Assembly: GCA_023974075.1 (NCBI GenBank)
Contig: CM043800.1
Location: 22,882,218-22,946,217, forward strand
DNA: 64,000 nucleotides
DNA from: Chaenocephalus aceratus
Lineage: Eukaryota > Chordata > Actinopteri > Perciformes > Channichthyidae
Reading direction: 5' to 3'
The notes beneath the pieces were generated by a model that saw only the letters and a program-made list of their open reading frames with translations, ran no database searches and was not told the origin of the DNA. The translations under genes were made by a program, and so were the position numbers. Positions 16,039-62,090 of the stretch are shown piece by piece; within the stretch, counting starts at the first letter, position 1; every line of letters begins with the position of its first letter.

Positions 16039-24355
<8,317 letters not shown>

Positions 24356-29146: not shown

Positions 29147-32006
29147 CTAATTTTCCTCTACTACCTTAGCTATTGTAAATCTAGTCCCTCCACCATGAGG
29201 ATGCTGCACAATTTCCTCTTCCGTAGTATTTGTCGAGGGTATAGTGAAGAATATGCCATCACTTTCTAATGCACAACTTTCCTCCTCCTTATCTGCACTC
29301 ACACATTGTGCAGGTTCAGTTTCTCTGTTGCCATCTTGTATTAAAGGACGCGCCTTGCGTTTGCTTTTGTCCACAACAGCGATAGCATTTATGAACACTT
29401 CACTGATGCTCAGCATACGTCTTTGACGTGGCGAGTGATCCAGGGTCTGGATGTTGTTGGCCAAGATGTCGCTGCAGCTCTTAGAGCGATTTATGTTGTA
29501 TTCAGGCAGTGTTTTATTTGCTGTGGTTCCAATTCCCTTGATGACAGTGCTGTAGTCTTCCTCCTCCTCTGATAAGAAGTTAAAGATGTCAATAACAGAG
29601 TGCTTTAATTCTGGATTGTGCTTCTCCTCGACAGGCTCGGGTTCCAGATCATAGAAGTGTCGGTGCCTGTGCCTTCTTTTCTTAAACACTTTGTGAGCTT
29701 TCACTACCATGTGGACATTCCAGCTGAAGAATAGAGACAGCCAGGCCAGGCCCATGTAGATCCATAACTCTGCAAACACTCTGTACAGCCTGGGATATTC
29801 TATGTTTGGATTTACACCTGAAATGAGAGCCAGTGGACATTCTTTTCATAGGACTTAACAAACCAAAACGTTTAGAACCACAAATAACCACAGAGAAACC
29901 TTAACTTAAATGAAAATGTACATTATGCTAACGTAAACCTACCTGCCACATAATCTCCAAAACCAACTGTTGTGAGTGTGATAAAAGAGAAGTAGAGGCC
30001 CTCCAGGTAGCTCCATCCTTCAATAGACATAAAAACAAATGGAGGGATCACCAGGTGCACGACCAGCCCCCATAACAGGAATAAGGCTGTGCAGGTGAAT
30101 TGGACCTTTTTCTAATGGAAGGGAGAAAAAAAAACACATTAGATCTTCATGTTAAAATAACACAATATAACACCCTTTTATTAACAGTGTTCAGAAAAAA
30201 CCCAACTCCAGCTTTCATTTAAATTCTTACCACTGAAACCTTTTTGTGGATTAAAACTTGGGACAGACGTTTGGCCCGGTCTCCAAAGAATGAACCCAGC
30301 TGGCTTATCCATACCAGACACAGGGGGATCCCACACAGACCATACAGGATGCAGAACACACGACCACCTTGAGTCTTAGGAGCAACATTACCATAACCTG
30401 GGGAATACAGGAGTTAATATTAACACACACATCTATACTTCATTAATGGTTAGGTCATTTGTCAATCATTTACAGATGGGAAATAAAGCATTAAGGATAC
30501 AATTATAAAATGTGGGTTGTCAGGTTAAAAGAAAAATGCCTATACTTGGTATCCTTCTCTAGTGTTTTTAATTAGCTTAGTATTCATTTTGCAGGAAGAT
30601 CACAGTTTGATCATTTGCAAATAATTAATTTAATACATAACCGTTACAACAGCACAAGTATTGTCATTGTCTTGATGTTAGTAATTCATTAATCAGGGCT
30701 AATGTTTTCTCAATTCCTGATAAATCTTCAAGACTATTTCAAGAGTTGACAAAGGTTTTGGGTTGTTTATGACTTATGTTCACGATACCTTACCTCACCA
30801 AAAAGTATTAAGAATTATGGAAGTATTACATGTTGTCTGTCTTTATGTGTTGCATTAAGATCGACTTGTACACTTCTCTGTGGCACCGCACATAAAGTGA
30901 GTTAATAAATAAATAATGCGAGGTGTATACAAGACTTATTCTGTTGCCAAATATTTTAAATGTAACGTCACATTTAACTGCTTTGATTGCAATATGTTTA
31001 CATAAAACAAGGATTAGTTGTTTTTTTATCAAATATTGTCAGTGTCATACAAACCTATGGTGGTCACAATGGTGGCAGCAAAGATGACAGAGTTACCCCA
31101 GTCCCAGGTGTTCCGCTGTTTGTCCCCAGTGATGGTCAAACCTTGGCCTGCAGCATCTGACACTATCTGAGACAGTGGACACAGTAAACTCTCAATAAAA
31201 CCCATTCACATCCCCCTATAACTTCAGCAACTACTTTAACTTAAGAACACCATAAACAAACTTATTGAAAACGTTTACAATGGCTTATTCAAAATATCAA
31301 CTTCACAACTTCCCAGCTGCCATTAAAGCGGACACACCCTTAGCAAACATTCAAATATGTGTGCGGAGGAGAAAGACATGCTCATGCACGCTCACTGTGC
31401 TGTTTAAAACCAAGAGTGCTCGCAAAATGTCCGGTGAAATTCGGCTTTAACACAAATGAACATGACATCAAAAACATTGAAGTGGTTTTATAGTCAGGCT
31501 ACAGGTTGCTTTGGCCAGCATGCGGTTGTTTTGTTGTTAAATCAGGTAAAACAGGTTCTGGTGTGTCCTGACATGTAAAGACTTTCACCCATCAAGGCTA
31601 AATAAAAGGTAAAATAAGGCAAATTAAGCTGTTAACATCTGTGAGTTGTTCACATGTATTGTATTTGATAACTTAATGTGACTTAACAAAAGCATACATG
31701 CTTTTACCAACTAGGATACATAGTTGGTCAATCACCGCGAAAAGTTACGTACACATTTGCCTACTTATCTCAGTCATGTTAATCTCCTGTCATAAACTGC
31801 TATTAAAACACGTTTCATACCTCCAAAATCTCATCCAGACTTTCCGCTGTTAAGCAGCTGTATTTCTTCAAAATGATTTTCTTTTGTTCGATATACTCGT
31901 CTCTGGCTGTTTTCCAGTTGGGCTCTTCGAGAATTTGAAATATTGCAGCCCCGATCGACAAGTAGAAAATTATACATGAAGTTAAAAACGGACCCTTATC
32001 TGCCAT
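29147..32006 (-). CDS. kcnk5: Two-pore-domain potassium channel K5 (TASK-2)
   Basis: Alkali-activated background K+ channel of epithelia, a plasma-membrane dimer with two pore loops per subunit. Five exons on the minus strand: 31821-32006, 31055-31166, 30231-30397, 29943-30111 and 29147-29817; 1,305 nt, 434 residues. The start MADKGPFLTSCIIFYLSIG matches the TASK-2 N-terminus. The first selectivity filter (TTIGYGN) is built across the exon 2/3 junction and the second is TTVGFGD. The P1 region keeps the TWDWGNSVIFAATIVTT pattern, and the helix after P2 (LWIYMGLAWLSLFF) is followed by the very basic KKRRHRHRH. The cytoplasmic tail keeps the DIFNFLSEEEEDY block seen in TASK-2. The tail is shorter than in the human protein (499 residues from memory). 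Teleosts have more than one kcnk5 copy and I cannot tell which this is. Confidence 0.94.
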
Positions 32007-33411
32007 ATTAAAGTCATAACTTCAGTCTATACGTCGTAGTGTAGCTTTTATTCCTGAGAGGACTGCCCTTATCCTACCCGCTCAGCTTTCTTCCTGGTAG
32101 CCTACAACACAAAGCATTACGCTCACACAAACTCAGATCCATAGTCCAGAAACATAATTTCATTAGATGCTTGATTTATAGACTTATATAATGTATATGA
32201 TCAAATTCCTATTGATAAAAAAAAAAACAGTGGAGAAATGCAAAAACTATGGAAATAGCTTAAAGGCTGTCCACATTTCCAAGCAGGTGACACATTGTTT
32301 TTGTTTTTGTATGCCAAATCAGCATATTCCCCCCTTATTTTCAGTATAATGAACAGTCTTATTTACATATACATCATTATGTATAAAATAAAAATGCAAG
32401 TATTCAACCTGTCTCTATACTTTCTTACATGAATGCAGAATACCGGAATGAAGCAATTATAGAATCATCCGACAGGGGGCAACACGCCCTCAGTAAGCCA
32501 CAGTTGTGAGGAGGCATGCCTGCATTTTGTGACTGAAGTTGTGTGTGTTTGTGGTGATGACAGTTGCTCTTATCTTCATCCAGAAGACTGGAGTTGAGTG
32601 TGACACACTGGGTGGATCCTGGCTGCTCTGCATGATAATGGTGAAGAGGTGTTTCCCACAATGTGAGAATACTGCATGTGTAAGAATGAATGATTTGAAG
32701 AATATACTCGTGTCTATCTATCTATCTATCTATCTATCTATGGCACTCTACAGTATATCATGGCTCACTGCACATAATAAGGACGGATTGTTCATCACAA
32801 GGAGTATTAGTCAGCTTACAAAAACACTATTGTATTGCCCATGGGAAGTGTATTTTTTGTTTCGTTTTAGGTATAATACTGAGACAGATGTTCCAGCTGT
32901 AGCAGCTGCCAGACAGTGATGTGCTGCACCTTAAGGGAATTCACAGTGCTTTTGGTGGGAGAATGAAATGGAGCCATGATATGTGTGTTTGCCGTATGCA
33001 CCTGATGCACTGATGTAGGATTAACCATGAATTTATAGCAAATCGTTTGAATATGTAAAAAAATATACACCAATTGGTATAAATGTGTTTCTGAAATTGT
33101 GTTGAAGAAATCCTTAAATAACTTTTATACTCCAATCTTTCTCCCTTTTTGACAAAGCAGATATTTCTATTTGGAATTTTTCACACATTCATGTCAAGAA
33201 GTCACAATCAGCAGAACACATTTTTGAGAGGTGAAGGGGCTCTAATTTATATTTGGGGGTTCACAATAATCAGTAAGAAAACGTATAAGTAATAAATTGC
33301 CATTTGATCCTTACTTACATGACATCATAAAGAAAAAGAAGGTGATCGTCTAGGAACCAATCAATAATAGAGTTTACCTATATTAATACTTGGATATACT
33401 GGAACTACATA
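32007..33411. other. kcnk5 upstream region
   Basis: Contains the promoter side of kcnk5, an A run at about 32218 and a (TATC)n microsatellite (32713-32741). I see no gene-like frame; the forward frame 32539-32919 shows no family features. Confidence 0.5.
32713..32741. repeat. (TATC)n microsatellite
   Basis: About seven perfect tetranucleotide units in a row. Confidence 0.95.
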
Positions 33412-34440
33412 ATGGTACATGTTTTTTTTTATGCGGATGATACTGTGATGTATTGTGCAGGTCCTACCATTAAGGAGGCTGTTGTTAAATTACAGGCTGT
33501 TTTTAACACTATTCAGACTCAGCTCTCTGAATTAAAGCTTCTTTTAAATGTGGATAAAACCAAGGTAATGCTCTTTTCAAAAGCAAAAAAGACACCAGAG
33601 CCTGTTTTAGATATTGTAACTACGCAAGGAACAAAACTTGAAGTTGTTGCCTGTTACAAATACCTTGGTATCTGGCTTGATGATTGTCTCTCTTTTAAAC
33701 TTCATGTCAATAACCTGCTAAAAAAACTGAGGGTTAGGCTAGGGTTCTTTTTCAGAAACAAGTCCTGTTTCTCGCTTGAGGCCAGGAAAAGGCTAGTCAC
33801 TGTGACCTTTTTACCTGTGCTGGACTATGGGGATCTGGTCTATATGAATGCACCTGCCAATTGCCTGGTCAAGTTAGATGCTGCGTATCACAGTGCACTG
33901 AGATTTGTGACAAACTGTAAAGCATTAACCCATCACTGTACCCTGTATGCAAGGGCTGGTTTGCTTTCACTAACTGTACGGAGGCTCAGTCACTGGTACA
34001 TTTTTATATACAAAGCCATGTTAGGGAAACTTCCATCTTATATCTGCTCCCTGATCTCACGGAGAATTGTAAGTGGCTACTGTCTGAGATCGAATGCTGT
34101 GGTTGTATTAAATGTGCCAACTGCTAGGACTGTCTTAGGGAAGACAGCTTTTAGATGCGCAGCTCCTCTGTCTTGGAATAGTCTGCAAATTAAATGGAAA
34201 CTGAACAATCTGGTGCCACTAAATGTTTTTAAAGCTCGGTTGGATGCTACTCAATCGGAAGCTATTGGTACCTGTTTATGTGGACAATTTTGTAAATGAT
34301 GCTGTATGCTGTCCTTTTGTTGTTCTATTTATGTTTTTATGTTTCATGTGGAACTACTTGAACAGGTCTCCCTTGGAAAAGAGATCAATGATCTCAATGG
34401 GATTTTATCTGTATAAATAAAGGTTTGAAATGAAATGAAA
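33412..34440 (+). mobile_element. 5'-truncated LINE with an open 295-codon RT C-terminus
   Basis: The frame 33412-34299 is open for 295 codons. It starts at the RT catalytic box (FFYADDTVMY), then LLNVDKTKVMLFS, YKYLGIWLDD, FLPVLDYGDLVY and the thumb/C-terminal block ending in PLSWNSLQIKWKL and LNVFKARL. This is the usual C-terminal half of a CR1/L2/Rex1-like non-LTR retrotransposon. The tail has an AATAAA-like stretch at about 34416 followed by a short (TGAAA)n repeat (about 34426-34447), the kind of 3' end these elements leave. The upstream half of the element is absent, as is usual after 5' truncation. The lack of stops suggests a fairly recent insertion. Confidence 0.88.
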
Positions 34441-42453: not shown

Positions 42454-42558
<105 letters not shown>

Positions 42559-45564: not shown

Positions 45565-46944
45565 ATGACAACAGAGGCAAGTGCAGTGAGCGAGGCGGAC
45601 ACTGAGGGCAAGCAGAAGGCCAGTGGCGCCGAGCCCGAACCAGAACCAGAACCAGAGAACAAACAGAAGCTGGAGGCGGCCACGTCCGAGCCGGAGGGGG
45701 AGCAGTCGAGTAAGGAGGCCCTGGAGCAGGCCTCCGAGCCTGGGCCTGCTGACGTAGCTACCTCCCCCGAGGAGGAGCAGCTGAAGCCCCGCACCCGGAC
45801 CTCCGCTGGCAAGGGTCTGTCTCGCCTCTTCTCCTCTTTCCTCAAGCGCCGTTCACAGTGCTCTGAGGGAGAGGGGTTTGAGGCGGAGAAAGCCAAGGAG
45901 GATAAGGCAGACAAAGAGGACACATCTGATGAGGTAAACGAGGAGAAGGAAGAAGAGGTGAAAAGTGAGGAGAACGAGGCTAAAGCTGAGGAGAAAGAAG
46001 CAGAGGTAAAAGAAGTGGAAAAGGAGGAAGAAAAAGAACCAAAAGAGGAGAAAGAAAAAGAAAAGGTTGAAAAGAAGGGCAGTAAAAAGAAAAAGAAAGA
46101 GGCCAAGAAGAAACAAGAAAAAAAAGATGCGCTGAAAACTGAAGAGGAGAAAGTGAAAACTGACAAGGAGAAAAAAGAAGAGGCAAAGGTGAAAAAGGAA
46201 GAGGAGGCAAAGGAAGAGGAGAAACCAGAGCCGACTGTAGAAAATAAAGAGGAAACATTGGAGACAAAAGAAGAAGACAAAAAGGAAAGCGCTGAAGTTA
46301 AAGACAAGGAGGAAGAAGCCACAAAGAAAGAAAGTAAGGAGGAGGAAAAAGTGGACAAAAATGTGGTAAAGAAAAAAGAAAAGGATGATAAGGTAAAGAA
46401 AAAGGAAGAGGAAAAAGCTAAGAGGAAAGGAGAAGAAGAAGACAGGGTAAAGAAGAGAGAAGAAGAAAAGGCAAAGAAGAGAGAGGAAGAAAAGGCAAGA
46501 GAGGCCGAAAAAACTAAAAAGAAAGAAGAGGAGAAAGCTAAGAAAAAGGAGGAGGAGGCTAAAAGGAGAGAAGAGGAGACTAAAAAGAAAGAAGAGGAGA
46601 CTAAAAAGAAAGAAGAGGAGACTAAAAAGAGAGAAGAGGAGAAAGCCAGAGAAGAGAAGACTAAAAAGGAGGAGGAGAAACCAAAAGAGGAGGTCAAGGT
46701 GAAAGAGGAGGTCAAGGTGAAAGAGGAGGTCAAGGTGAAAGACAAGGAGGAGGAAAAGACAGGAGAGAAGCAAAAAAAAGAGGAGGTAAAGGGGAAGAAA
46801 AATAAAAAAGGAAAGAAGGAGGTGAAAGGGCCGAGTGAGGAGCAGGTCAAAGCTCCCATCGCAGCTCCAGAGCCCGAGCTAAAAACTGAGCCCGACACTG
46901 AACAGGCTCCAGATCAGCACTCGATAAGCAGCGCAGAGAACCAG
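45565..46944 (+). other. epb41: epb41 head exon: Lys/Glu-rich, single-helix-like (460 aa)
   Basis: This very long exon encodes an acidic start ([16 protein letters not shown]), a small folded-looking patch ([19 protein letters not shown]), then some 260 residues built almost only of K, E, R and A. The latter includes tandem units such as KKKEEET (three near-perfect copies at about 46570-46640) and VKVKEE (about 46690-46740). The alternation of blocks of four basic and four acidic residues is the pattern of stable single alpha-helices. Mammalian 4.1R has a shorter head without such a stretch, as I recall it. The exon ends phase 0 at a GTGAGT donor. Long opposite-strand frames here are by-products of the repetitive codons. 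Confidence 0.85.
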
Positions 46945-49900
46945 GTGAGTGTGACACCGACACATATATCACCAACACAGACATCCTTAGATGAGAAGAT
47001 TGATACCACTCTCATATCGTTCTGTTCATCTACAGTTAGCTTAGCTTAGCTCCAAGACTGGACATGGAGAGAAACAGCAAGCCTTATTGAGTCCAAAGAG
47101 AACAAAATCATCCTGCCAGCATCTCCAAAGCTTCATAATAAACACATGTTATCTTGTCTGTTTAATCTCTACAAAAAGTAACAAGTACGCTTTTTTATTA
47201 CTGTGCCAGACTATGTCCTTTACGGTAGAAGTGACCCAGAGTTGGCACTTGGATAATGACATTCCAGGAGACTGCCACTCCTGGCCAAGAAATAGTGACG
47301 CACATTCATTAACCCCCTGCTGTTTTTACACTGGTTTTTGTTCAGTTTAAACAAGGGAGATAAAGCATGTCAAACCAATTAGTGAGCGTTCGAGGCGCAG
47401 ATAGGAAGTATCTTTGGACAGAGCATGCTAGCTATTTCCAACTTCTTTCTATGTTGTAATGCTAAGCTAACCTGCTGCTGACTGTAGCATCTTATTTATT
47501 GCAGAGATGCAGGAGTGGTATTGATCTTCTCATTTTATAAGAACTTGCTTTTCCCAAAATGTGGAAAAAACGTTTCATTCAATCACTAGTGTGAGAATTA
47601 AGGATGCAAAGACGTAGCTCTCATGTATACAACAGCAGATTGGATTGTAGTAGAGGAAGTTGGAACACATGTTTTTTTCTTTCTTATGAATTGTTTATGA
47701 TGTGGACAGCTTGCTCAGCGAAGTAGCTGTGGTGCACTGAGCTGAAAGCTTGGCCTGACACAAACGATCCATGCTGTTCTTAAAATGCAGCTAGCATTAA
47801 CAGCAGTATCTTTACTGTGTTCTATTAACGGTAGACTGTGTATTAATTGTTGAGCTGTCACAAAACAATTAGTCATTCCCCTTATTTATTCTTTTGATAT
47901 GTTCCGTGTTTATTCTACAAGCAGGAGCAAAAGGAAGAAGCTGCCATAAAGAAGGAGCCTGAAGTTGTGGAGGAAGTGAAGGAGGAGGACACGGAGAAAA
48001 AAGAGGAAGAACCCGCAGAACAGGAGATGGAAGCCAAAGGAGAGGAGAAGCCGAAGGAGAAGCCGAAGGAGAAGCCGAAGGAAAAGCTGAAGGAAAAGCC
48101 GAAGGAGAAGCCGAAGGAAAAGACAAGGGAGAAGATAAAGGAAAAGGCAAAGGAGAAGACAAAGGTGGAGGAGAAGACAAAGGTGGAGGAGAAGACAAAG
48201 GTGGAGGAGAAGAAGGAGAAGCCTGTAAAAGAGAAGAAGACAAAGGAAGAAGAGGCTCAAGGCCCCAAACGTCTGAAAACCATGCAATGCAAAGTCACCT
48301 TACTGGACGACACTCAGTTTGAGTGCGAGCTTGATGTAAGAGACCTCCCAAATTTCAGTTTCTTGAATGTTTATACCAATGGCTACTACCCGCGTTAAAG
48401 AATCAAATGGGGTTGTTATCTAAATAATCTCCTTCTCCCTGTTTGTCTGTCTCTCTTTCGTTCTTGTGTAGAAACATGCTAAAGCCCAAGAACTTCTTAC
48501 AAAGGTGTGCGACCATGTCAACCTGCTGGAGAGGGACTACTTTGGCCTCGCCAACTGGGAAAACCCATCCACCTGTGTAGGTTTTTCTACTCCCTGTAGT
48601 AAAGTTACTCTGCAAAAGCATAACCCTTTATTATGAATGAAATTGGCTGTGAGCAGTTGTTTATTTTTTACCCCACATGTATTCCGCAGACATGGATGGA
48701 GTCTACCAAAGAGATCCGGAAACAGGTTCCAGGCGCTGTGTATGAGTTTACATTCAGCGTCAAGTTCTACCCTCATGATCCAGCCCAGCTTACCGAAGAC
48801 CTCACCAGGTGAATATCTATTAATAATATATTAATAAAGGAATAGTTGGATTTTGGAAAATATGCTTATTCTATGGGATTTAACATGTTATTTGGAGAGG
48901 TGCTGGTAAGCGGATTGTTCTTAAGGACAGAGCCAGGCTACTCTTCTTCCAGTCTTTATGCTAAGCTAAGCTAGCATTATACAAAAAATACCTAAACGTA
49001 GCTTTCAGCTTCACAGCAAAGTCGAAAGCTTGTGTTTCCAACAACAATATAGTCAATTCAGAATATACTCTTCAAATCTTCATAAGTGAGCTAATTGTTG
49101 TCCATTCACGTCTTCTCCAGGTACTTTCTGTGTGTCCAGCTGAGGAAGGACATCATGCGAGCTGTTCTTCCCTGTTCCTTTGTCACACTGTCCATGCTGG
49201 GCTCCTACACAGCCCAGTCAGAGCTCGGAGAGTATGACCCAGAGCTCCATGGAGAGGATTATGTAAGTGATCTGAGCCTGGCCCCCGGACAGAGCAAAGA
49301 GCTGGAGGATAAGGTGATGGAGCTGCACCGCACATACAGGTAATCAATGGGGGAAATTGGAGCAACAAAGTGATGGCAATCTGTAGCCTGAAGTTAAGTT
49401 TCATGAAGTTTGAGTTGGAATTCAAATAATCATTTTATTAAAATGTAATATAACTATGATCTGTCTTTTTCCAGGGCAATGACCCCAGCCCAGGCAGACT
49501 TGATGTTTCTGGAAAATGCCAAGAAACTCGCCATGTACGGAGTTGACCTGCACCAAGCTAAGGTATTTTTTGTTTAAATAAAGTCACCTGTTTAGATCGG
49601 TATCGAGTTGGTAATCTAACAATGCAAGTATTTCATGGGAATTTTAAAATTCAACAGTTCATGGATTCATCGATTTCCTGTGTGTGGGTATTTTGCAGCA
49701 ACCCGCTTGTATTACATCAGGAGCATCCCGATTTTAATTACAAAATTGATGTCCCATTTTGGAAAAAAAGGAGAGATTAATTTCATTTTAAACTGAAACT
49801 CCATAGTCTTCCGTTGTGGGAGAAAGTCTGCCTCCCAGTGATTGTTTATTGTAAGTGCAGGGTAAGGGTGAAGGCGTGCAGAGCTACAATATCCTAACTG

Positions 49901-52900
49901 TTTCATCCTGTTTTTGTGCATCCAGGATCTCGATGGCGTCGACATCACGCTCGGGGTTTGCTCTAGTGGTCTGATGGTGTACAAGGACAAGCTGAGGATT
50001 AACCGTTTCCCTTGGCCCAAAGTTCTCAAGATCTCTTACAAACGCAGCAGCTTCTTTATCAAAATCAGGCCATCAGAGGTACATCCGAAATTACATTCAT
50101 TTGTTTACTATATTCTAAATTAAATTGTTTCCCTTGTTTTTTTTATTTACTACATTATTTATTACAATTATAATGTCATTTTTTGATTAAAACGCTTTTA
50201 TTGTAATTTGTACATTATTTTAACTGGATGGGAATGCTGTATAGTTGTATGGATATGTATATGTATGTCAAGCCTCTACATATTTTTCTGGCTTAATACA
50301 GATTTAGTATGAGGATTAATACATTTGAATAATAATCCTTAAATATATTGCACACTGCAATTCAGGCTTTGATTGTAGACTATTTTGTACACTAGCATTT
50401 TTATTTCCAGCATTACATTTCTTGTAATGTACAGTATATCAAATGTTTCTAAGATTTTGATTTAAGAAATTGTCTTTTAGAATTAGAACAAATATTCATC
50501 AGGATTCACAATATGTTCATACAACCCAGCAGATGCATGTCGATGCTTCAGAATAATCCCATCAACATAAGGTCATTATATTTGACTTTATTTTTTGTTT
50601 TTTCATTTACAGCAAGAGCAGTATGAAAGCACAATTGGCTTTAAACTGCCCAACTACAAAGCCTCAAAGAAGCTGTGGAAAGTGTGCGTTGAAAACCATA
50701 CCTTCTTCAGGTGAGTTCAGGTCATTTAATGTAACCACACATTCTAAATTACACTTCCTTGCCCGGCAACAGAGGTCATTTGGAGGTTGTTCCTATCACT
50801 TAGATAATTGGCTAACTGCTCTCTACAGCTTAAGCCCTATATTGGCTCCCTGGCACTTTAACCACAGAAGCAAAGCTGCATGCCCATGGTCATGACCTTA
50901 GAATTAAACCTCAAAGGGTTTGTCTACTTAGTAAGATGAAGGTCGAAGCTGTTGCTGACCTTTTTGCATAACTGACAATTTTAAGGGAATGCAAAATCCT
51001 TTTATGTTAAATGATGTAATTTACATTTATATTCCTGGTGCGTGGGTCTGTCACAGAAAGGAAATTGGAAAATGTATTTAATGTTGAGTGGATGAAAATG
51101 AAGTGTTTTTGTCTTTCAGAGTGCCAACTGTGGAGCCGCCCGCATCGCGCCGCTTCCTCGTCTTGGGCTCTAAGTTCCGGTACAGCGGGCGCACCCAGGC
51201 CCAGACCCGCCAGGCCAGCACCATGATCGACCGCCCAGCCCCTCGCTTCACACGCTCGGCGAGCAAGAGGCTCTCCCGCAACCTGGATGGAGGTATGTGC
51301 CACTGTGTGAACCTGTGTTGGAATGATTGTTTAAGAGCGCAGGTTCGATAAGCTGCCCTCTGACTTGTTTCGCTCTTGCAGCTGGAGATGAAACTCTCCA
51401 GCTCCTGCAACACCTCTCAGCCTCCACCAGGTCTGAGGTGGGTGATTGGTTGCTGATGCTGACATCTGACAAACCCCAGCCTTCTCCTGAACTCCCAGGT
51501 ACCAGGAACTGTGTGGACCAACGCTTTCTGGCATATTTGCTGCTTTTATAGCCTCATCACATATATTAACATGCTCATTCGTTTGGCTCATTTGCTATCA
51601 TGCCCGTAATCCTCTTGAACACATTGCCTGTCAGCTGCGGGACAGATGGTTTACTTGTCAGGATGCTGACTTACTCTGACATGTGGGTAAGGTCATACAC
51701 CTAGTACTTCCCCTGGCATCATCCCAGGGTCATTAAGCTCTCTTTCTAAAATAATACATAATAGGATTCCTCAAAGACTCAAATACACACAGGCATTTTC
51801 AGTCTTGAGGCAGGTTCCTCATTTTTGGGGCATTTCCTGAAGTTGCTGCTTGATATGTGTTGCACAATGGCTTTTCATTAGCTTGTACCTTGTCATGTTT
51901 TGTCATCTTAACTGACTGACTCATCACTGCCCCAGTGAAATTTAAAAGGTAAAAAGTACTATTTGCAAAAGTTTTGCCATTTTCACCTGCTCTCGTTGTG
52001 AAGGATGAGAGGCATCTTCCATTCAGCTTTCTACTAACCTGAGCTTACTTGAATTACAAGAGTCTTGTATAACCTCTTGGCATCTGCTTTGGTCCAAAAC
52101 ACGCTTGAAGCACTGTGAAGCATCACAATGACCGTCATCTCTCCCAGCAAAACCTTTGCACAACAGTCATCACTCGGTCATTTCTTCACAGCCAGGGGGG
52201 AGTCTGAGCAGATTCCCATTCAGGAGCAGGGGCAGTCTGTTCCCACAGTGTCATGGCAGGGCACTGGGACTGGGCAGACTGGCTCTCAGACCATCACCCA
52301 GACAGTCAGTCAGCCAGGGCAGGAGCTGACGTCTGACAAGCAACAGCAGAGGGGAAAAGAGGACGAGTGGTCTGCCCTGCTCGGGCGATATCCTCCTTTT
52401 CCCTTTGTCTCACCTCTTGATTTTGCAAAACAGCCAGGTATTTTCACATCTAATGCTTGCCTCAGCTTGAATTTTAAAGAACATGTGGCAAGTAGGAAAT
52501 ATAAACTATTAACAGTCTGCAATACGAATCATATTTTTGTTTTTTGTATGCTTTATTGCTTTACTTTCCCCTTTTAATCCTCCCAGTCTCACGCCAAGCT
52601 CAGTTCCAGCTCCTGGAGGAGGAGGAGCAGGGCTTGCAAATGGCGGATCAAGATCTGACCAGTGAGGAGGTCTTTGAGAGTCTGCAGGAAACCGAGGTCT
52701 TGTTAGACGAGCTGAAAATGGCGGATGTTTTGGAATGGAAGCTGAGGGAAGTTAGGGGTTTAGAGGAAAGACTGCAAGAAATGGATGAGGTGGCAGAGCG
52801 ACTTCAGGAAGTAATAGAAGAGGAACTGGGAAAGGAAGAGGTAGACATGTTAAGAGAGGGAGATTTGGATCAGGAAAACGGAATGCAGGTTGAACACATA

Positions 52901-55900
52901 ATAGAAAGTGTTTTGAGGAAATCTGTGAAGTCAATGGAGACAAAAGAGGATGGAGTGGATGAATTGGAAGAGCAGATAAAGCAGGTGTTTTTAAAAGGCA
53001 TTTTGCCTGAAGAGGAAGAGTGCCAGATCAAGCAGGAGAGTGAAAAAGAGATGACAGGAGATGATAGTTTGAGAGAAGAGCTGTGCCAGATAGAAAGTAA
53101 ATGGCAGGACGAGATGGAGGAGAAGTTGAATGCCAGATCCCCAGACGTCACTTCGGTAGTCACACACCGGAAAGTGGAGCGTAGGATTAAGAAGAGAGTG
53201 ACTATTGTAGAAGATAGAGGGCAGATGCAGGAAGAAATTGAAGATGTGCTTGTACTGCGTGGTTTAATATCAGAGGAAACGCTAGGAAAAGAGGGGACAT
53301 GGCGTAAGACCGTCATACTGGAAGCGAAAACTGAGGGAGAAGTTCTAGAGAGGCTTCAGGCTGACGGTCCTTCTCAGAGCGCAGATGGAGATGAATGGTT
53401 CATACTTTTTGACCGACTTCCGTACAAAGCTGTTTCCAAACCACCAGGTACAGTATGTCTGTCGTTGTGCAAATAGCTGTAGACTTCTGCTAATCTCTCT
53501 AATCTCTGTATCATTTCCTTCTCCAGTACTATTTTGTGTGCTGTTAACATGAACAATTGAACCCTCTTTAGATTTATTAGAAAGGAGAAGTATGCATATA
53601 AATATAATTTGCCATTTATGAAAGGCCTGTCTGTGCTGGGTATTGTTCTGGGTTATATTCAGGTCAAAGCAGTCTACTGAAAGTAATGACAGTATAGCTG
53701 ACGGAACAAATTTGGTCAATGAAGATGTCCTAATTTGAAAATGGGTTAAAAAAAAAAAGAAAAGAAAGTCCAACAAGCATAGCCTTTGTAGTCTGGTGTA
53801 TACAGGAATTGAAAGCCTTTTTGTATCATTAAAATGGACAGTAATTATCATTTATATACAGAACATTCTTCTTAAACCTCACTCACGGCGAAATAACGCT
53901 TTTAAAAGTAATATGATTTGCAGTGTTAGTAATACCTATACTAGTCAGGAAAAAGGTTTTTGCAAATAAGAATAATCAACCACACCCTGTCCTGCTTCTC
54001 CTAGCTTTTCGGCGCTGCATGTTTGCCCCGATGTTCAAAGTATTTTGTGTCTTTACTGTCATCATTAGTCACTCCCGTGGACCGTGCTCAGCTAGATGAA
54101 GGTGAATATCTCCCTTCAGAGACTGTTGTTACGACAGTTAAGCAGAACACTGAGATTATAGTCGCTGAGAGACAGACAAGTGAAGAGGAAATGAGGCGTA
54201 TACCAGAGATCCCCCCACCACAGACCGTCCCTGAAAGAGATGATGACTGGCTTTTGATGTTGGATGTTGTCCCCAGGGAAACACTCTATGTTCCACCAGG
54301 TATTGCTTAGGCCGTCTGGTAAAACCTTGGCTCTCTAGTGCTTTATTCTGTGACAACTACAATAATCCTCACTTTTGTGGACACCGTTATTCTTAATCTC
54401 CTGTACTGTATATATTTCTAAGGGTTTTTCATCTCTTTTGTCTCAGCTGCTGTTGCAGAAGTTGTTAAAGTGTCCCCAGAAGAACGTGTCGCTCTGGTTA
54501 AAATAACAACTATTGAGCGGAGTGAGAAAAAAGTTGTGGTAGAAGAAATAAAACAAGTGCTTGGAGAAAAGCAAGTGGTAGCACTCCCACAGGCTGTGAG
54601 AGAAGTAGAAGATGACTGGTTTGTGCTGCTGGATGTTGCCGCGAGAGAAACATCATATTATCACATACCAGGTATGGTCGACTTTCTCTACTGGCTGGTC
54701 TTAGAAGCTTATTGTAGGCGTCTTACAAATGTTCCTTAATTCTGTTTGTCATTAGTTACCATGGATGTTCAGGTTTATACTGAAGAAAGACTTTCTACTG
54801 TGGCTGAAACAATAACAGTAGAGTCCAGGAAGGAGGTCTTTGTTAAAGAGACTGTGATGCAGTGGGAGGACAGAGGACAGCAGGAAGTATCCGGGCCACT
54901 CAGGGAAAGAGATGATGACCTGTGTATCCTGCTGGATGGTGTTCCCAGAGAAAGTGCCTATGTACCTCCAGGTACCCACAGCCTTGACATCTCACACATT
55001 TTCCTCCTATAGAAGAATATCTTACAAACAAACATGGTGTCACGCAAACTATTTCTAGATAACTTGGATTGTGGTGTCTGATTATGAGTTTGAGTATTTA
55101 TTCTGTTTGCTTTCAGTTTCTCTGGTAGCACCAAGCTACATTTATCCCAGTGTTCAACCTCAACAAGTCCAAGTGATAAGGGTAGAGCAGACGTTGCAGC
55201 AGGTTGATCTTGAACCGATTAGACTGCAGCCTTCCTGGCCTCAGACGGAGAGAGATGATGACTGGTTTGCACTGTTTGATGCTGTCCATGAAAAGACAGT
55301 CATACTACCTTCAGGTACATGTCATATATGTTCTAACCACATCAGAAGTTACTCTGAAACCTTATATTTTAATACATTTACCAATTTCTGCAGCGCTAAG
55401 CTTTTCTTTGTTTGTGTCAGTTGCTCCCGTTGAGATTATTCCGGATATGAGGAGGACGTTTGAGACCGAGGTGTCGACCACAAAGACTGGAACATGGAGG
55501 AAGATGATAATTGGTGTGGACAGCAGGCAAGATGAGACACATCTGTCTGAAATTAGATCGAGCCGAATTGCACTGCCGTCAGAGAGGGAAGGAGGAGATG
55601 ATATGTTTGGTTTGTTCGACATCATCCGTGGAAAGCCTGTTGTCATACCGCCAGGTACCTTTCATTGCCAAAGCTGCTGCATGCACTTTGCTTCAAGAAA
55701 GTTCACATAAACCCGACTGCCCGCACACCTGATGCTTTCAGCCATAAATAGCAAAAATAAATGGTAAATAGTTAATCAATCGGCGTCAGAGTTATTTAAC
55801 TTTGTTTCTCCATGTTAGTTGCTGTGGTTGAGCGTGTTGTCCAAGTGGTGGCAGCCATTGACCAAAAACCAAAATACCTCATGGAAGACGTGAGGCCCCC

Positions 55901-58900
55901 CGTGAAGTTTGTGGAGGTTAAGACGTCACATCCGAGACGGATTGATGATGATTGGTTTGTGCAGCAAGATGTAGCAGCAAAAGAACCAGGTATTATTTTG
56001 TCGCTCCTACTGTATGTGCGCTTTATATTTTTATAAAAATAACTCGCCTGTTTAATATATGTTAAGTAGAATCGTTGTTACTGAGAAGGCTTTGTGTGTA
56101 TTCTACATTAGTGACTGTGGACAAACATTTCCACACACATCCTGAAGTAAGACCAGCTAAAGAGTATGCCGCCATAGAGAAGAGAGCGCAGAAGAGTGTT
56201 ACGATAGTGCAGCAGAAGTGGCAGCTGGAGGATGTGCTGCAGCAGGAACCGAGTGCAGCAGTGAGAGAGGTTGAAGATGATTGCTTTACCCCTCTGGATG
56301 TGGCCAAGAAGAAATCAGGTATTATTAGAGCAAGTGACAGCTATATATAGGAGCATTTTACATTTGATTTATTTTTAAATCATTCTAAGATGTAAGCCTA
56401 CTGTATCAACAGACTCAGCAGTCATTGAATTTACTTTCACTATAAATGCAAGTGTGTTCATATGTTGTACTTCATTTCTACAATAATACCCACTTGCTTT
56501 GTATTAGCTGCTGTCCCTGAGCGCTTCCAGCTAAATGTGAAAGTTCCAACTGCTGGGGCCAAAACAAAGATTGTGATATCCGAGAGGAGACCACAGTTTG
56601 AGCAACAGATCCTGGAGGAAAGGCGTCCTCACACACAAACACATGTCCACCATGATTGGTTTGTTCTGCTAGATGTTGGCCTCAGAGAGTCAGGTACCAC
56701 TTTGGGTTTGTTGTTTGCAGATGAACCGCTTACATGTTTTTTCGCTCCATGAAACGCTTAAGCAACACTTGCAGCCCGTTCACAGGAAGCCCTGACTTGG
56801 ATGCACATTCATCATCACTGAAGGACCTCTGGTCGTGCTATGTTTTGCACATTGAAGAAATAACGCTTTCCTAACCTCGGCATTTCACCTGTTCAACCAC
56901 ATTGGACTGCAGCCTAACGTCATCTGCCTTTGCATCTTTCATTGGATTCCAACAAGAACTAATCCATGCTTTTACTCTTAACCTTGAGGACTGACGTTTC
57001 CTTTTGTTTAAAGACTAAACCAGGCTTATGAGGTACAGTATACCCCTGCAGTGTGAACACATGGAAGCTTGTAAGTATGATGTGGCTGCTTGCATAGATG
57101 CACTATTGTGTTGTTTTTTCATTGATATGTTTATAGATGTTTTACTGTGCATGTTACTCACTTGGGCGATTTGACTAGTTGGAAGTGCCTACCGTCGAAT
57201 CCCTCTACTGTGCTTGAACATATTTCCTTTTATTTACGTACAATTCTGTCTGTATTTTTCCAGTGGTGGTCCCACAGAGGGGCGCCCGTCCCGTCAGTGC
57301 TCCGGTCTTCTCCCAGGCCGCTCTGGCCGAGGCAGGGATCCCCTTTGCCATCCTGGAGCAGCCGCAGACCTCCACTCCACTGAAGACCAGCCTCAAGGAG
57401 GAAAGAAAGCTGGAGGTCACTATAGAGGCGATGGAGCCCTCAAAAATCGAGGCTGAGGTCAAGGTATAGAATTTCTCTTTAAACACTGTCTTACACGTTA
57501 GTGATGAATTTAAATCTAAATGTGTGTAATCAACGTTTACTTTACAGGAAAATTGGGGGCCATTTATTTGATTATTTGTCCTCATAGCAATTGGCTGTGA
57601 ATTGTTTGTTGTAGATAATGATGACCTTGACATTTCAAAAACAATTTTGAATGCAATGGCTTCATGGTCTTCTTTAATGAAGACACTAAAGTAGCGAACA
57701 GAGATTGTCCTCTGGGTCTGAGTGTGAACTGTGTCTCTCTTGCTGCTGTAGCCAGCAGCGTGGAGGGACCAGAGAGAAGTAGACTCTTCACTGATGGCAA
57801 CCCTCAATGGGGACATTCAGGTTAGTGTCAGACACTGGCCCCTTGCATGTGGCCCCTCACAAGACTTGTTTCCACTCTGGATCTGAGTGTTAAAGCCAAC
57901 AAGCAGAGGATGCTAACATGTGTCCCTCTCTCCTCCCCGGTGTAGCACGCGTCTGAGGAGACGAGCACGGAGGTGGTGCGAATGCGAAAGGTCAGATTCA
58001 TAGCCTCGTAAACGTTTCCGTAGCCATCTCTCCACCTCCATTCTGATATCAAGCTTTTCATCCAAAACACTAACTCACCCTCTTCTCACGTTGTGCTTCT
58101 GTACAGCTCGGTCTAAAATGAAATCCACATCAGGTTGGATGAACATACTGTATTAGATTGAGTTGATTGAAAGTAGATTGAAAATGTAAGCAGTAGATTA
58201 TACGTTTTTACACAGATGATCTGTTTTTGAGTTTACAAGGCATTCATTTCCTCTCATTGCTTGCTGTTTTTCCTAACCCTGGAATGCACACATGCATGAC
58301 TATAGATGTGTGCACTTAACTAAAAAAGTTGCATGATTACTGGTGATAACATTTCTTTCACTTTAGGTTCTTTATTTGTTTGTTTTCATTGTGCAAATAG
58401 ATATCCTAAGGCAGTCCTCTATAGCCTCAGGGTCTTTGGCTCGTTAGCACATTGCCATTCGACTCTTATACTCACTTAACCCTGAACTATTTTGCATGCA
58501 GACTCCTCACAGCTCGGTTTGTATTAACACTGTAGTGAATGTTGTAGTATGCATGTCCAACCTATCTTCAAGCACACAGGGGAACTGAAACAAACCCACA
58601 CCTGTTTTGTTCTTTTTCACAGAAAAGAGCTAAGAGAATTGAGGGTGACTCAATTTATATCAGACATAGCCTTTTAATGTTGGAGGTTTGTATCCCTTCT
58701 GGAGATGTCAGTCTCTATCTGTGTTTTCCTGCTCTGTGGCACGGCTGCTCTTTAATATCACGCTTGCATGTGGCATGATTCTCACTTTATGCATCGGCGT
58801 TTAATTGCTGCAGAATAAATGATAACGTTTGTTTGTGTGTTTTGCAAATCAAAGATGCTTTGGTATCCGCAAACGTGTTAAGGATGCTTAAACTGTCACT

Positions 58901-61900
58901 CTTCATCAGCAGCTACATTTGATACCCACGATCATCAGTATTCTCCTGTTCCTGCTTTTGCTCTTTTACCTCCATCTAATTCTAAACATGCTTTACAGCT
59001 TTTGACCATAGACATTTTATTACAAATATACATTTTCTGTCATTTGTAAAAGGTATGACTTTTGGAGAAACACTTAACATTAAGTTGCTCTTTAGCACCA
59101 CACTGTGTGAAGATAAGTAGTTACTGTTCAGTGAAGGTCTTTCTCTGCAGTCGGTTTGGTCAAATGGGAGACGATATCTTCAGTTGAGATCAACTTGGTG
59201 CTAAATGTTGCCAAATGAGAGCTGCTACTGCTGCTTTTGTTCATTTAATAATAATAGATTTAATTTGTTAGCGCTTTTACAGGTGCTCAAAGACGCTTTA
59301 CAGATATAGTGACAAATGAGGTTTTCATTCATACTCAGGCTTTCTCTTTCTTCCATATCTGCGATCATCACGTCTTCTGCTCTTTAATTTGCAGCCTGTT
59401 TTTTCAAGGGCTTCACTGCTAAATGCTTTAAAATACACCATTAACCATGTGATGTGCCGCTTGTAGCTCCTTCCCATCCAAATCTCAAATTAAATGTGAT
59501 AAATCGTGGCACTTACTCCTTTGAATCTTCCTTTGTATACACCAAAATCTGCTCTCATGAATCAGCCACCAGATGATTTACATTTTGAAAGTATGTTGTT
59601 AATCTATTAAGAATCCACATAGTTTTGATGTAGATGATTGAACCCTATGTTCCTTTAGAATCACCAAATAACCCCGCTGATGCTTATTCACTAATCAGCA
59701 ATAAATCAACCCAAATTGTACAGAAACAGGAGAAAGCAACACAAACTGACTGATTTTCTTTATTCTCTCCCGTTTGATTTCCCAACTACGAACCCATCCT
59801 TCATCTGCCCTTTCCTTCCCCTATTGTTTCTCCCTTTTTTATTGTTGCATGGCCCAATTCCCTGCCCCTCCCCCTCCACACTCTCTGTCCCCTCTTGGCT
59901 CTCCTCCCTGCAGGAGTTTGATAAGCCTCAGGAGGATCTGATCAAGCATCATGCCAGCATCAGTGAGCTGAAGAGGACCTTCATGGCCTCCGCCCCGGAG
60001 AGCAGGCCCAGTGAGTGGGACAAGCGTCTGTCCACACACTCTCCGTTCCGCACCCTGGGGGTCAACGGCCAGCCCGGTGCAGATGGGGTAAGTCTCCCAC
60101 AGAAAACACCAACACATGTCTGTTGATTTAACTCCTGTCAGTCAGCCTGCTCAGGAATTGAAGCAAACATTTAAATTGATTTAGAAACTTCTGACAGTTG
60201 CCAAGTTGTCTTGGTTACAGCTGTACTTACACATGCATCATGGCTCTGCAGTTTTAGAGATGTTTGGATAAACATCTGTGCACTAGTGTGAGCAGTGTGC
60301 ATGGATTGCAAAGGGAACAGAAGACCCTGAAAGTAGCACTGATTCTAAAACCGATAGCAGAAGGGATCAGCTTCTTCCATGTGTCCTTCTTGCTCCGCTT
60401 ACAGTCTGAGTGCAATGGATGGTGTGTGCATGTAGACCTATTCAAGGAGATGGCATGTGGTATGCAGCACATGCATGTGTGCTGTATGAAGAATGCAGAT
60501 GTACATGTTGAATAGGGTCTGTACTTTGTGTGTGAAGCATCTCTGGGACAGAGTGTCCTCTCTGAGATCTGGCTCCTCTCATCCTCTTATCTGCGAAGGA
60601 TGCCTCTGAGCTCTGACTTTGTTTTTTTTGCATGACTGACGGACCTGACTTGGAAACTTTACCGCATGACTCGGAGATGAATTTTTGCACGTTCTGCTTA
60701 CACTGAGCAGAATTGACCCTTTCCCCTCTCCTCTGTCCCTCCTTCATTGCAGAGCTTTCTTTCGCTTTTAATACTTTTTCTTTGCACTTTTTCTCTTTAC
60801 ACTGATTTTTAAATGTCTTGGCTGCTGCCCGCCCCAAGCCATGGTTGTTTTTACCTGAAAAGACGAAACCTCCTACACAGTTGTATCGGCAGCTTTTGCA
60901 CCTGCCTCGGCTGAAACATAATGTCAACAATGAAAGGAATCCATCATAAAAACGTTGTCATTGCTGGTATCAACATTTGTGTTACAGTTAAAATATGAAA
61001 TCACAGCTCTCTATTACACTAGAAACAATTTAGCTGAACTGCTGTCACACGAATAAACAAGTGTATTCTACTTAAGTTTGCCTTTTGGTGAGACAGTAAC
61101 GGAAGTGCAGCATAACTGTTTGGACACAAATATTTGTTACACTTGGGGAAAAATGCCTCCAAGTAAATTATATTGTCAGGATGCATTAGGGCTGCACTGA
61201 AGTCAAAGCAAATCAAATCTGACAGCTTAGAGTCTGCTGTGACGAGATGAATCAGAACAGCAATATGACATTGGTCAAATGTTGTCTGCCCAGTGGAGCG
61301 GACGCACACTCTTTAGCTCAATGTCAAGCCAGTTTGTCATTTTGCTTAACCTTCAGTTGCCAGACTTAAGCCGCTAGTGGGGGAGTTAACATTTGCACAA
61401 GTACAGATTATTATCAATGTGGGTTTGCAAGTGTTTGACACGCAGCAGCAGAATGTGTCCTGCTACTTCCTGACTTGCTACTTAAGATAAGAATTTAGTT
61501 CTTAGCTATGTTGTTACAAGGCAGCCTTACACAGATCAAATCAAATGACTGATCAAACACAACATAGCACTTGGTAGTTAACAGGTCAATCTAACATCCT
61601 CCAGCCAGAGGCCTAAGGTCCTTTTGGCTGTACGTTCTTCATTGTCCTCAGCTTACTGAGATAATTCAATTATATTTATAAATAAGATACAATAGTGGAT
61701 GAATTTCTGTCTTTTCAGAAAAAAACGAATTGTTGGACATGGAAAAATGCCAGTAACTTTTCCATGATCTGGACACAAAATAAGAAACAATCAAAATCCC
61801 ATTTTATTATTTCGTTACAACGTTATTACTCAACTCTGGCTTTTTTCAAGATTCATTTAATTTATGGGTCATTTCAAAATTCCTTCCTCTCATCTCTCTC

Positions 61901-62090
61901 CCCCACCCCTTCCTCCTCCTCCTCCTCCTCCTCCTCCTCCTCCTCCTCCTCCTCCTCCTCCTCCTCCTCCTCCTCCTCCTCCTCCTCCTCCTCCTCCTCC
62001 TCCTCCTCCTCCTCCTCCTCCTCCCCCCCTCAGTTTGTCATCCGCCTCCCACGCGGTCCCCTGCTCGACTTCTACTCCAAACGCAGCTGA
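45565..62090 (+). CDS. epb41: Protein 4.1R (erythrocyte band 4.1) with a novel repeat-exon insert
   Basis: Membrane-skeleton adaptor linking spectrin-actin to membrane proteins. The reading used here has 25 exons plus an alternative last exon (2,081 residues). Exons: 45565-46944, 47925-48335, 48472-48576, 48690-48808, 49121-49339, 49475-49562, 49926-50078, 50613-50710, 51120-51292, then eleven repeat exons (51382-56693), 57264-57463, 57752-57820, 57946-57990, 58623-58685, 59914-60087 and 62034-62090. All phases agree. Domain order: Lys/Glu-rich head (1-579), FERM (about 580-858, from [10 protein letters not shown] to VENHTFFR), FERM-adjacent ([18 protein letters not shown]), the insert (916-1879), a RPVSAP linker, and the spectrin-actin-binding part. 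[25 protein letters not shown] and [15 protein letters not shown] fit 4.1R rather than 4.1N, G or B. The ATG has a good context (ACCATGA). The conserved C-terminal domain is not seen before the edge, so full-length forms continue beyond the window. Confidence 0.9.
46960..47570. repeat. Inverted pair of a common teleost repeat in the first epb41 intron
   Basis: The block 46975-47080 (GATGAGAAGATTGATACCAC, CTCATAT, TTAGCTTAGCTTAGCTCCAA) is an inverted partial copy of the block 47410-47570 (GGACAGAGC, GCTAAGCTAACC, GTGGTATTGATCTTCTCAT). A third copy, in the same orientation as the left one, lies at about 48836-48990 (AAAGGAATAGTTGGATTTTGG through ATGCTAAGCTAAGC, read across two blocks). This family, with TATGCTAAGCTAAGC in its middle, is widespread in teleosts as I recall. 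The left copy starts about 30 bases past the exon donor. Confidence 0.6.
47925..48335 (+). other. epb41: epb41 second head exon: KPKEK and KTKVEE tandem repeats, then FERM start
   Basis: 137 codons. Tandem blocks of five residues (KPKEK type, about nine copies at 48050-48170) and six residues (KTKVEE, three copies at about 48165-48215) precede [16 protein letters not shown], where the FERM F1 lobe begins. The acceptor is a NAGNAG pair (AAGCAG at 47919-47924), so one extra Gln can be included or skipped without changing frame. The repeats suggest slippage-driven length change. Confidence 0.85.
48472..51292 (+). other. epb41: epb41 FERM and FERM-adjacent exons
   Basis: Seven exons complete the three-lobed FERM module (F1 [13 protein letters not shown]2 [19 protein letters not shown]3 [20 protein letters not shown] and [20 protein letters not shown]) and the FERM-adjacent domain ([23 protein letters not shown]). 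In this family FERM binds the cytoplasmic tails of glycophorin C, band 3 and others, and p55/MPP1. The last exon (51120-51292) ends in phase 1, which sets the frame for the repeat-exon insert. Confidence 0.92.
51382..56693 (+). repeat. epb41: Array of eleven phase-1 exons, each ending in a DDDWFxLLD motif
   Basis: Exons at 51382-51498, 52192-52437, 52587-53447, 54069-54299, 54447-54671, 54756-54971, 55117-55314, 55421-55654, 55819-55989, 56112-56318 and 56508-56693 are all phase 1 in and out (2,892 nt, 964 residues). Each closes with one motif. In order the cores read [100 protein letters not shown] and [10 protein letters not shown]; most are followed by a charged turn and P-P-G split by the donor. 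Most exons open with V/A-x-V. Each unit therefore looks like a 57-82 residue linker plus a short acidic-aromatic peptide, probably disordered with a binding motif. Equal phases mean units can be skipped, gained or lost freely. I know of no counterpart in mammalian 4.1R, which passes from the FERM-adjacent region almost directly to the PRPTSAPA linker. Confidence 0.88.
52587..53447 (+). other. epb41: Oversized repeat exon (287 aa) with a charged, coil-like body
   Basis: Third unit of the array. It ends like the others ([12 protein letters not shown], then SKPPG) but carries about 260 extra residues rich in E, L, K, Q and V (for example [20 protein letters not shown] and [20 protein letters not shown]), with hydrophobic spacing that suggests coiled coil. 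Two internal blocks resemble the bodies of other units ([15 protein letters not shown] and [15 protein letters not shown]), so the exon may have formed by fusion of several ancestral units. The opposite-strand frames here are shadows. Confidence 0.8.
57264..60087 (+). other. epb41: epb41 linker and spectrin-actin-binding exons
   Basis: Exon 57264-57463 restores alignment with mammalian 4.1R ([10 protein letters not shown] against RPTSAPA). Small exons follow at 57752-57820 (AAWRDQREV) and 57946-57990 (EVVRMRK). The 63-nt exon 58623-58685 ([20 protein letters not shown]) equals human exon 16, the 21-residue cassette required for the spectrin-actin ternary complex and included late in red-cell development. 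Exon 59914-60087 supplies [16 protein letters not shown] and [18 protein letters not shown], the rest of the 10-kDa domain. All five end in phase 0. Confidence 0.9.
59245..59315. repeat. Fragment of a common teleost interspersed repeat
   Basis: The string TTAGCGCTTTTACAGGTGCTC followed by AAAGACGCTTTACAGA, after an AATAATAATA stretch, is a sequence I recall as a frequent 3' tail fragment of teleost retroposons. It lies in an epb41 intron and has no coding capacity. Confidence 0.45.
61911..62025. repeat. (TCC)n microsatellite forming a polypyrimidine tract
   Basis: About 38 uninterrupted TCC/CCT units run to within a few bases of the CAG acceptor at 62031-62033. Pure pyrimidine on the sense strand, it would act as an extreme polypyrimidine tract for the following exon. 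It can also form triplex (H-DNA) structures. Open frames of poly-Ser, poly-Pro or poly-Gly through it are artefacts. Confidence 0.95.

Follow-up and report, generated by a model that had tools for sequence, protein, structure and literature searches.

A protein 4.1 gene of the icefish Chaenocephalus aceratus, which we assign to the 4.1b paralogue epb41b, carries eleven tandem exons that encode variants of one short acidic and aromatic motif, [DE]DDWFVL[LF]D. The gene lies on the + strand of the 64,000-nucleotide stretch analyzed here (contig CM043800.1, positions 22,882,218 to 22,946,217; hereafter "the window"). There the array separates the exon that ends the FA region (51292) from the next constant exon (57264-57463), and so stands between the FERM/FA exons and the exons of the 4.1 linker and the spectrin-actin-binding (SAB) domain. 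Our favored reading, held with moderate confidence, is that the array forms a multivalent docking strip of short linear motifs for one partner, used mainly in red cells.

Eleven Symmetrical Exons Form a Single Open Frame

Each of the eleven array exons has a length divisible by three, an AG acceptor, a CAG/gta donor, and phase 1 at both ends (11/11 in every case). Together they sum to 2892 nt, or 964 codons, read in one open frame from the end of the FA exon at 51292 to 57264. On these points the original prediction, which was made from the letters of the window alone, proved accurate: it had described eleven consecutive phase-1 exons at 51382-56693 that insert 964 residues between the FERM-adjacent and spectrin-actin-binding parts of the protein. 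Its further statement that the motif ending each exon is followed by PPG has to be amended. The motif stands, with its tryptophan lost from exons 6, 8, and 10, but the PPG does not, because its last letter belongs to a codon interrupted by the intron, of which the exon supplies the opening G (G/CN for Ala, G/TN for Val). Exon 3 consists mostly of a long acidic stretch and has a single motif at its end. Chance open frames were ruled out by the eleven symmetrical exons, the consensus splice sites, and the occurrence of the array in 66 representative fish proteins. A pseudogene was likewise ruled out by the stop-free spliced frame and the intact FERM region.

To compare the exons with one another, a profile was built from 26 units of four fish (Polymixia, Myripristis, Larimichthys, and Centroberyx), with no notothenioid sequence included, and 200 shuffles of each exon served as the control. 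Exons 3-11 reach 19.7-75.9 bits, whereas their shuffles peak at 1.7-9.4. For exons 1 and 2 the scores are 0.3 and 6.1 bits, with shuffles reaching 2.9 and 7.9, and their membership rests on DDWF-type orthologues (e.g., in Polymixia) plus position. The locus is thus a tandem exon repeat with homologous units recognized by profile in 9/11 exons and the same phase in 11/11. Given homologous units, a unit number that varies among fish, and recent local duplications of units in the sequences from Lampris and Larimichthys, the earlier proposal that one phase-1 exon was duplicated repeatedly is supported. A Pfam search of exon 3 gave only a sub-threshold match, and the PDB yielded one weak match to the unit profile (E 0.95) and one to a 27-aa consensus (E 3).

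Table 1. Exons of the epb41b gene in the window
Feature	Position	Strand	Codons	Core	Remarks
FERM N-terminus start	48282	+			MQCKV; in the exon preceding 48472
FERM and FA exons of epb41b (n = 7)	48472..51292	+			tblastn with human 4.1R, splice joins, FA Pfam match at locus
Last FERM/FA exon	51120-51292	+			ends in phase 1
Array exon 1	51382..51498	+	39	GDWLLML	profile score not above shuffles; VDDW in red-blooded relatives
Array exon 2	52192..52437	+	82	DEWSALL	profile score not above shuffles; DDWFILF in Polymixia
Array exon 3	52587..53447	+	287	DEWFILFD	long acidic stretch, then core
Array exon 4	54069..54299	+	77	DDWLLMLD	75.9 bits by profile
Array exon 5	54447..54671	+	75	DDWFVLLD	71.8 bits by profile
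Array exon 6	54756..54971	+	72	DDLCILLD	60.5 bits; W lost (Champsocephalus esox keeps W)
Array exon 7	55117..55314	+	66	DDWFALFD	41.1 bits by profile
Array exon 8	55421..55654	+	78	DDMFGLFD	39.8 bits; W lost, common with C. esox
Array exon 9	55819..55989	+	57	DDWFVQQD	29.2 bits; second L to Q, common with C. esox
Array exon 10	56112..56318	+	69	DDCF-type	37.7 bits; W and L changed, common with C. esox
Array exon 11	56508..56693	+	62	HDWFVLLD	47.0 bits by profile
First constant exon past array	57264..57463	+			aligned in relatives
Exon-16-type cassette, 21 residues	58623-58685	+			variably included in deposited isoforms
SAB exon	59914-60087	+			

The Array Gene Belongs to the 4.1 Family

The gene had been named protein 4.1R. 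Membership in the 4.1 family is upheld, but plain "4.1R" is not: the array is common to records named "protein 4.1b" (Xyrauchen, Misgurnus, and Anguilla rostrata), and the same genome has an array-free locus, C11, that we read as the epb41a type. We take the array gene to be epb41b, the fish erythroid 4.1 gene known in zebrafish as merlot/chablis. Pfam finds all six of FERM_N, FERM_M, FERM_C, FA, SAB, and 4_1_CTD in two array-bearing relatives (P0114 and P0048). The window itself has FERM, FA, and SAB exons, and the CTD was not found within it. A tblastn search with human 4.1R placed headpiece exons from 45565, FERM/FA exons to 51291, and SAB-side exons at 58620-60096; the human counterpart of the first constant exon past the array is AAVDSADRSPRPTSAPAIT. 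The headpiece exons (45565-46944 and about 47925-48335) contain long Lys/Glu-rich tandem repeats with periods of 63/42/21 bp, 12 bp, and 18 bp, a second repeat expansion within epb41b besides the exon array.

A strong FA match occurs at six loci of the genome. At C11, an RPVSAP exon lies about 0.7 kb past the FA exon with no core between them, and a pattern match further downstream is one string only, in a stop-containing frame. At C5, C24, C7, and C17, the 20 kb that follow FA yielded no cores, with SAB-type markers not clearly reached in that interval. When the consensus unit was compared with the whole genome, four matches fell at the array locus (E 1.8e-15 to 0.27). The sole match off the locus had E 9.98 and contained stops; in this search, which recovered four of the window's own units, the array locus alone stood above chance.

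The Array Is Found in Fish from Sturgeon to Perch

A search of 5.8 billion proteins with the 964-residue region returned 314 proteins at E <= 0.001. The best 120 of these all bear teleost names, and most have the full FERM, FA, SAB, and CTD set; array-bearing records among the matches listed are often titled uncharacterized, titin-like, or protein 4.1. Two further searches, directed at shorter proteins, gave 21 matches at E <= 5 and 47 at E <= 10, about a dozen of them unnamed fragments. They add whitefish, salmon, smelt, pufferfish, ricefish, guppy, suckers, loaches, carp, catfish, eels, bonefish, and shad. Some of the single E-values are weak (Hemibagrus catfish 2.7, shad 0.96, American eel 0.01), and the cores in these proteins were read by eye.

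A further case is a Chinese sturgeon protein (P0168) whose E-value of 0.16 is weak on its own. We accept its array because of position and periodicity: four units of ~37 residues lie exactly between SRSLDG and DRSPRPVSAPVIS. The profile counts 12 units in Polymixia, 11 in Larimichthys, 8 in Xyrauchen, 3 in Anguilla, and 2 in Acipenser, with distant forms undercounted. By these searches the array is old, reaching from sturgeon to perch. No tetrapod-named match was present among the matches listed (the best 120 of 314, plus the 21 and 47, some unnamed). Because candidates were limited by length and shared words, absence in tetrapods is not claimed.

Conservation of the Motif Tryptophan Matches That of FERM

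An earlier count of motifs selected by a regular expression was biased toward the motif, and we used two unselected measures in its place. The first is a 53-fish alignment whose columns were taken from the Larimichthys reference rather than chosen by motif in each fish. Mean pairwise identity in the core columns is 0.96 for W, 0.92 for D(-2), 0.80 for D(-1), 0.79 for F(+1), 0.79 for L(+3), 0.83 for the L/F at +4, and 0.74 for D(+5). Flanking columns reach 0.46-0.65 at -20 to -5 and 0.49-0.72 at +6 to +21. For comparison, the domains average 0.93 (FERM-FA), 0.87 (SAB), and 0.80 (CTD). In this set of fish, conservation of the motif tryptophan is thus on a par with that of the FERM domain.

The second measure is a profile with its nine motif columns masked, so that the motif cannot select the units. 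Applied to 72 other fish proteins, of which 69 yielded units, it found that 508 of 522 units carry W in the aligned position. The 14 remaining units comprise seven register slips with a W nearby, one deletion, and six substitutions, in which the W is replaced four times by F (three of these in Lampris) and twice by C. Because W is present in 508/522 units and the true substitutions are mainly W to F, this position accepts almost only aromatic residues. The description of the array as repeated acidic-aromatic peptides is supported by both measures, with a conserved core and freer flanks. Protein-level constraint on the array among related fish is supported as well.

Predicted Disorder and Splicing of the Array

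AlphaFold2 models were made of two relatives, P0137 and P0168, from fish-only alignments of 53 and 38 rows. With mean pLDDT values of 44.9 and 50.9, these are weak models that inform on disorder and not on docking to FERM or CTD. The array is predicted to be disordered, since it is modeled as coil with pLDDT of about 29-47. Exceptions in P0137 are a ~100-residue helix at the exon-3 part (pLDDT mostly >90) and a short helix in exon 1.

Deposited, predicted protein models of many fish join the array to the FERM exons, in keeping with the original prediction. We compared 34 pairs of deposited isoforms of our own choice from 17 species, all of them predicted models. Fifteen pairs (15/34) differ by skipped array units, with blocks of one exon (39 or 61 aa), two exons (122-159 aa), or 419 or 427 aa; the remaining differences involve the exon-16-type cassette and the U3 region. 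Splicing may thus tune the number of docking sites, and the array might then act as the built-in isoform generator that the original prediction envisaged.

The same data can be read differently. If the array were a spacer or spring built by splicing, symmetrical exons would be skipped to tune the length of the linker, and the motif would be weakly self-sticking. Every array exon is indeed symmetrical and skipped units separate 15/34 isoform pairs, and the stretch just before SAB is reported to be altered in camelid 4.1R alongside a hyperstable red-cell skeleton (PMC9926112). Nothing about a spacer, however, calls for an invariant tryptophan amid freely varying flanks, and we consider this explanation unlikely.

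A Proposed Docking Strip and Its Possible Partner

The reading that we favor would work as follows. Tandem duplication of a phase-1 exon would have turned the FERM/FA-SAB linker of ray-finned-fish epb41b into a disordered array of [DE]DDWFVL[LF]D motifs. Each unit would bury one tryptophan plus the +3/+4 leucines in pockets of the same globular partner. One 4.1 molecule at the spectrin-actin junction could then gather several partner molecules, and the array would serve chiefly red cells.

Our best single guess for the partner, offered tentatively from motif resemblance, is an Atg8-family protein bound in the manner of an LC3-interacting region (LIR). It is possible, if doubtful, that the units are canonical LIRs (LIR/AIM, possibly also the FIP200-binding FIR) that together give the membrane skeleton a strip of 4-12 Atg8-binding sites. 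Such a strip might serve autophagic clearance or GABARAP/tubulin-linked organization in maturing nucleated red cells. The LIR core with nearby acidic residues, [DE][DE][WFY]xx[LIV], fits 461/522 units from other fish, 10/16 from red-blooded Antarctic fish, and 3/12 counted icefish units. The array core resembles the p62 LIR, DDDWTHLSS. The units also lie where LIRs are expected, in disordered sequence (pLDDT about 29-47 in two relatives, from shallow alignments). In PLEKHM1, tryptophan is the best residue, its change to F or Y weakens binding, and its change to A abolishes binding (PMC5538626); in the arrays of the other fish, most true substitutions of the tryptophan (4/6) likewise introduce F. 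LC3 binding is further described as favored when positions -2 to -4 are acidic and +2 is I/L/V/F, and an FIR as calling for an acidic residue at -1 (PMC7615515).

Other features fit LIRs less well. Conservation in the array reaches F(+1), L/F(+4), and D(+5), beyond the stated LIR core, and F at +1 occurs in no LIR among the rows listed from two tables of PMC5538626. These additional conserved residues would leave room for another pocket. LIR-like strings are, moreover, common.

The motif could alternatively be an acidic dileucine signal, [DE]xxxL[LI], recognized by clathrin adaptors. This pattern fits 370/522 units, and so is not present in every unit; F occupies +4 in 95/522. The most conserved residue of the array is a tryptophan, which is not known to have a role in such signals, and we regard a dileucine function as very improbable.

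Motif Tryptophans Are Lost in Two Icefish

The motif tryptophan is missing from 3/11 window exons, where exon 6 has DDLC, exon 8 has DDMF, and exon 10 has DDCF. Over the shared columns of the array and the following exon, the window shares 97.3% identity with Champsocephalus esox, another member of the Channichthyidae, and 93.5% with Pagothenia and Trematomus, which we take to be red-blooded. With both red-blooded fish used as the ancestral state, the window branch has changes at 7/86 core and 20/884 flank sites (p = 0.007), and the red-blooded branch has 2/86 and 12/884 (p = 0.36). Of the 325 FERM-FA sites, 2 are changed on the window branch. Motif tryptophans are wearing away in this icefish while FERM stays intact.

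The core-to-flank ratio of 7:20 on the window branch differs from that between Cottoperca and Perca (12:253, from 12/96 core and 253/1023 flank sites; p = 0.0006) and from that on the Antarctic stem (10:186, p = 0.0015). By the masked profile, W is kept in 16/16 units of the two red-blooded fish and in 6/12 of the two icefish (p = 0.002, from related sequences). Parsimony places four W losses: two common to the icefish pair (exons 8 and 10), one found only in the window (exon 6), and one in a C. esox unit without a window counterpart.

It is nonetheless possible that this decay has nothing to do with red cells and reflects drift, or relaxed constraint common to all Antarctic notothenioids. Altered cores occur in red-blooded Pagothenia and Trematomus as well, and the icefish and red-blooded core-to-flank ratios do not differ significantly (p = 0.69). 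An exon between exons 2 and 3 that is present in Perca, Cottoperca, and Anarrhichthys is absent from all four Antarctic sequences, and the window has a short intron at its site (52438-52586). A second short intron (54300-54446, between exons 4 and 5) coincides with two extra units in Pagothenia and Trematomus. The retention of W in all 16 red-blooded units, and a core-to-flank ratio in icefish unlike those of the Cottoperca-Perca comparison and the Antarctic stem, argue against this reading. We judge an explanation unconnected with red cells to be somewhat unlikely.

A search for globins in the 1.06-Gb genome gave three matches, which from their translations we read as two cytoglobins and myoglobin; the search gave no haemoglobin match. 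This set fits an icefish. The exon read by eye as myoglobin, at L011, was seen alongside the missing haemoglobin match, and icefish species differ in their use of myoglobin. Globin loss and the decay of erythroid genes have been described in icefishes (Daane et al. 2020, PMC7660546), and epb41 is unmentioned in the available portion of that paper's main text.

Evidence for a Probable Role in Red Cells

We infer erythroid use of the array because epb41b is an anaemia and erythroid-marker gene, because the motif is constrained, and because it decays in a fish without functional red cells. The gene affected in the zebrafish anaemia mutants merlot/chablis is epb41b (PMC10245139). Red cells of these mutants have an abnormal shape and skeleton (PMC6765189), and epb41b serves as an erythroid marker in zebrafish (PMC8790037) and in catfish spleen (PMC11426453).

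Several points weigh against the docking strip or its link to red cells. Expression of epb41b may extend beyond blood, with possible use of the array elsewhere, and the erythroid isoform may not be the array-bearing one. The ratios of 7:20 in the icefish and 2:12 on the red-blooded branch do not differ significantly (p = 0.69). The masked profile skips window exons 1-3, 7, and 9, all of which keep W, and the true loss in the window is 3/11 rather than 3/6. The icefish data come from two sequences only, with several losses common to both, and the C. esox model is incomplete. The full core is kept in 10/16 red-blooded Antarctic units versus 434/522 elsewhere, which indicates some softening in those fish too. 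Finally, the genome search recovered four of the window's own units, and strongly diverged units elsewhere could be missed.

Relation to Known Systems

Like vertebrate 4.1R (EPB41), the array-bearing proteins have FERM, FA, SAB, and CTD in the same order (by Pfam on relatives) and a variably included exon-16-type cassette. Human 4.1R is not known to have residues at the array site, whereas fish 4.1b has about 4-12 motif units. The giant-exon ankyrins are likewise adaptors of the membrane skeleton that have gained a disordered segment, in their case one that includes an Atg8-binding peptide (LIR); they use one giant exon and not an exon array. Camelid 4.1R-90 (PE region, exon 14) also has a lineage-specific change before SAB in red cells, but in the available part of its description this is a 19-aa exon plus a Pro/Glu stretch, with no repeated motif exon (PMC9926112). 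The LIRs of p62 and PLEKHM1 (EDEWVNVQY) have the same acidic run followed by W-x-x-[LIV], with one site per protein among the rows listed, in contrast to the many copies in the array.

The strings DWFVLLD, DDWFVLL, and DDDWFV were not found in the literature searched, and no description of the array was listed by searches on 4.1. The original prediction that the array is undescribed thus holds for the papers covered, while the proteins themselves are already in public databases. We rate the 4.1 family as known and the motif array of fish 4.1b as unrecognized so far.

Other Features of the Window

By eye from translation, LINE-like reverse-transcriptase frames were named at 17025-18240 (-) and 33346-34299 (+), and a frame at 29147-29845 (-) resembles the C-terminal part of a two-pore potassium channel. 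Long simple repeats are (CA)51 at 42455-42556 and (TCC)38 at 61911-62024.

Implications

The boldest interpretation, which we consider quite unlikely as a whole, is that duplication of an LIR-bearing exon gave ray-finned fish an erythroid skeleton adaptor that serves as a multivalent receptor for Atg8 proteins (LC3/GABARAP), and that icefish, which have lost functional red cells, are now shedding its motif tryptophans singly. If this were true, the skeleton of nucleated red cells would be tied to autophagy or to GABARAP-based organization, and icefish would provide a natural loss-of-function series.

Protein 4.1 is among the best-studied membrane-skeleton proteins, and its fish erythroid form repeats one motif as many as a dozen times, with a tryptophan conserved like FERM. 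The invariant core offers a ready bait for the partner. An anaemia model already exists in zebrafish epb41b, and icefish supply a natural series of motif losses. Together, these make directly testable which needs set nucleated red cells apart from mammalian ones.

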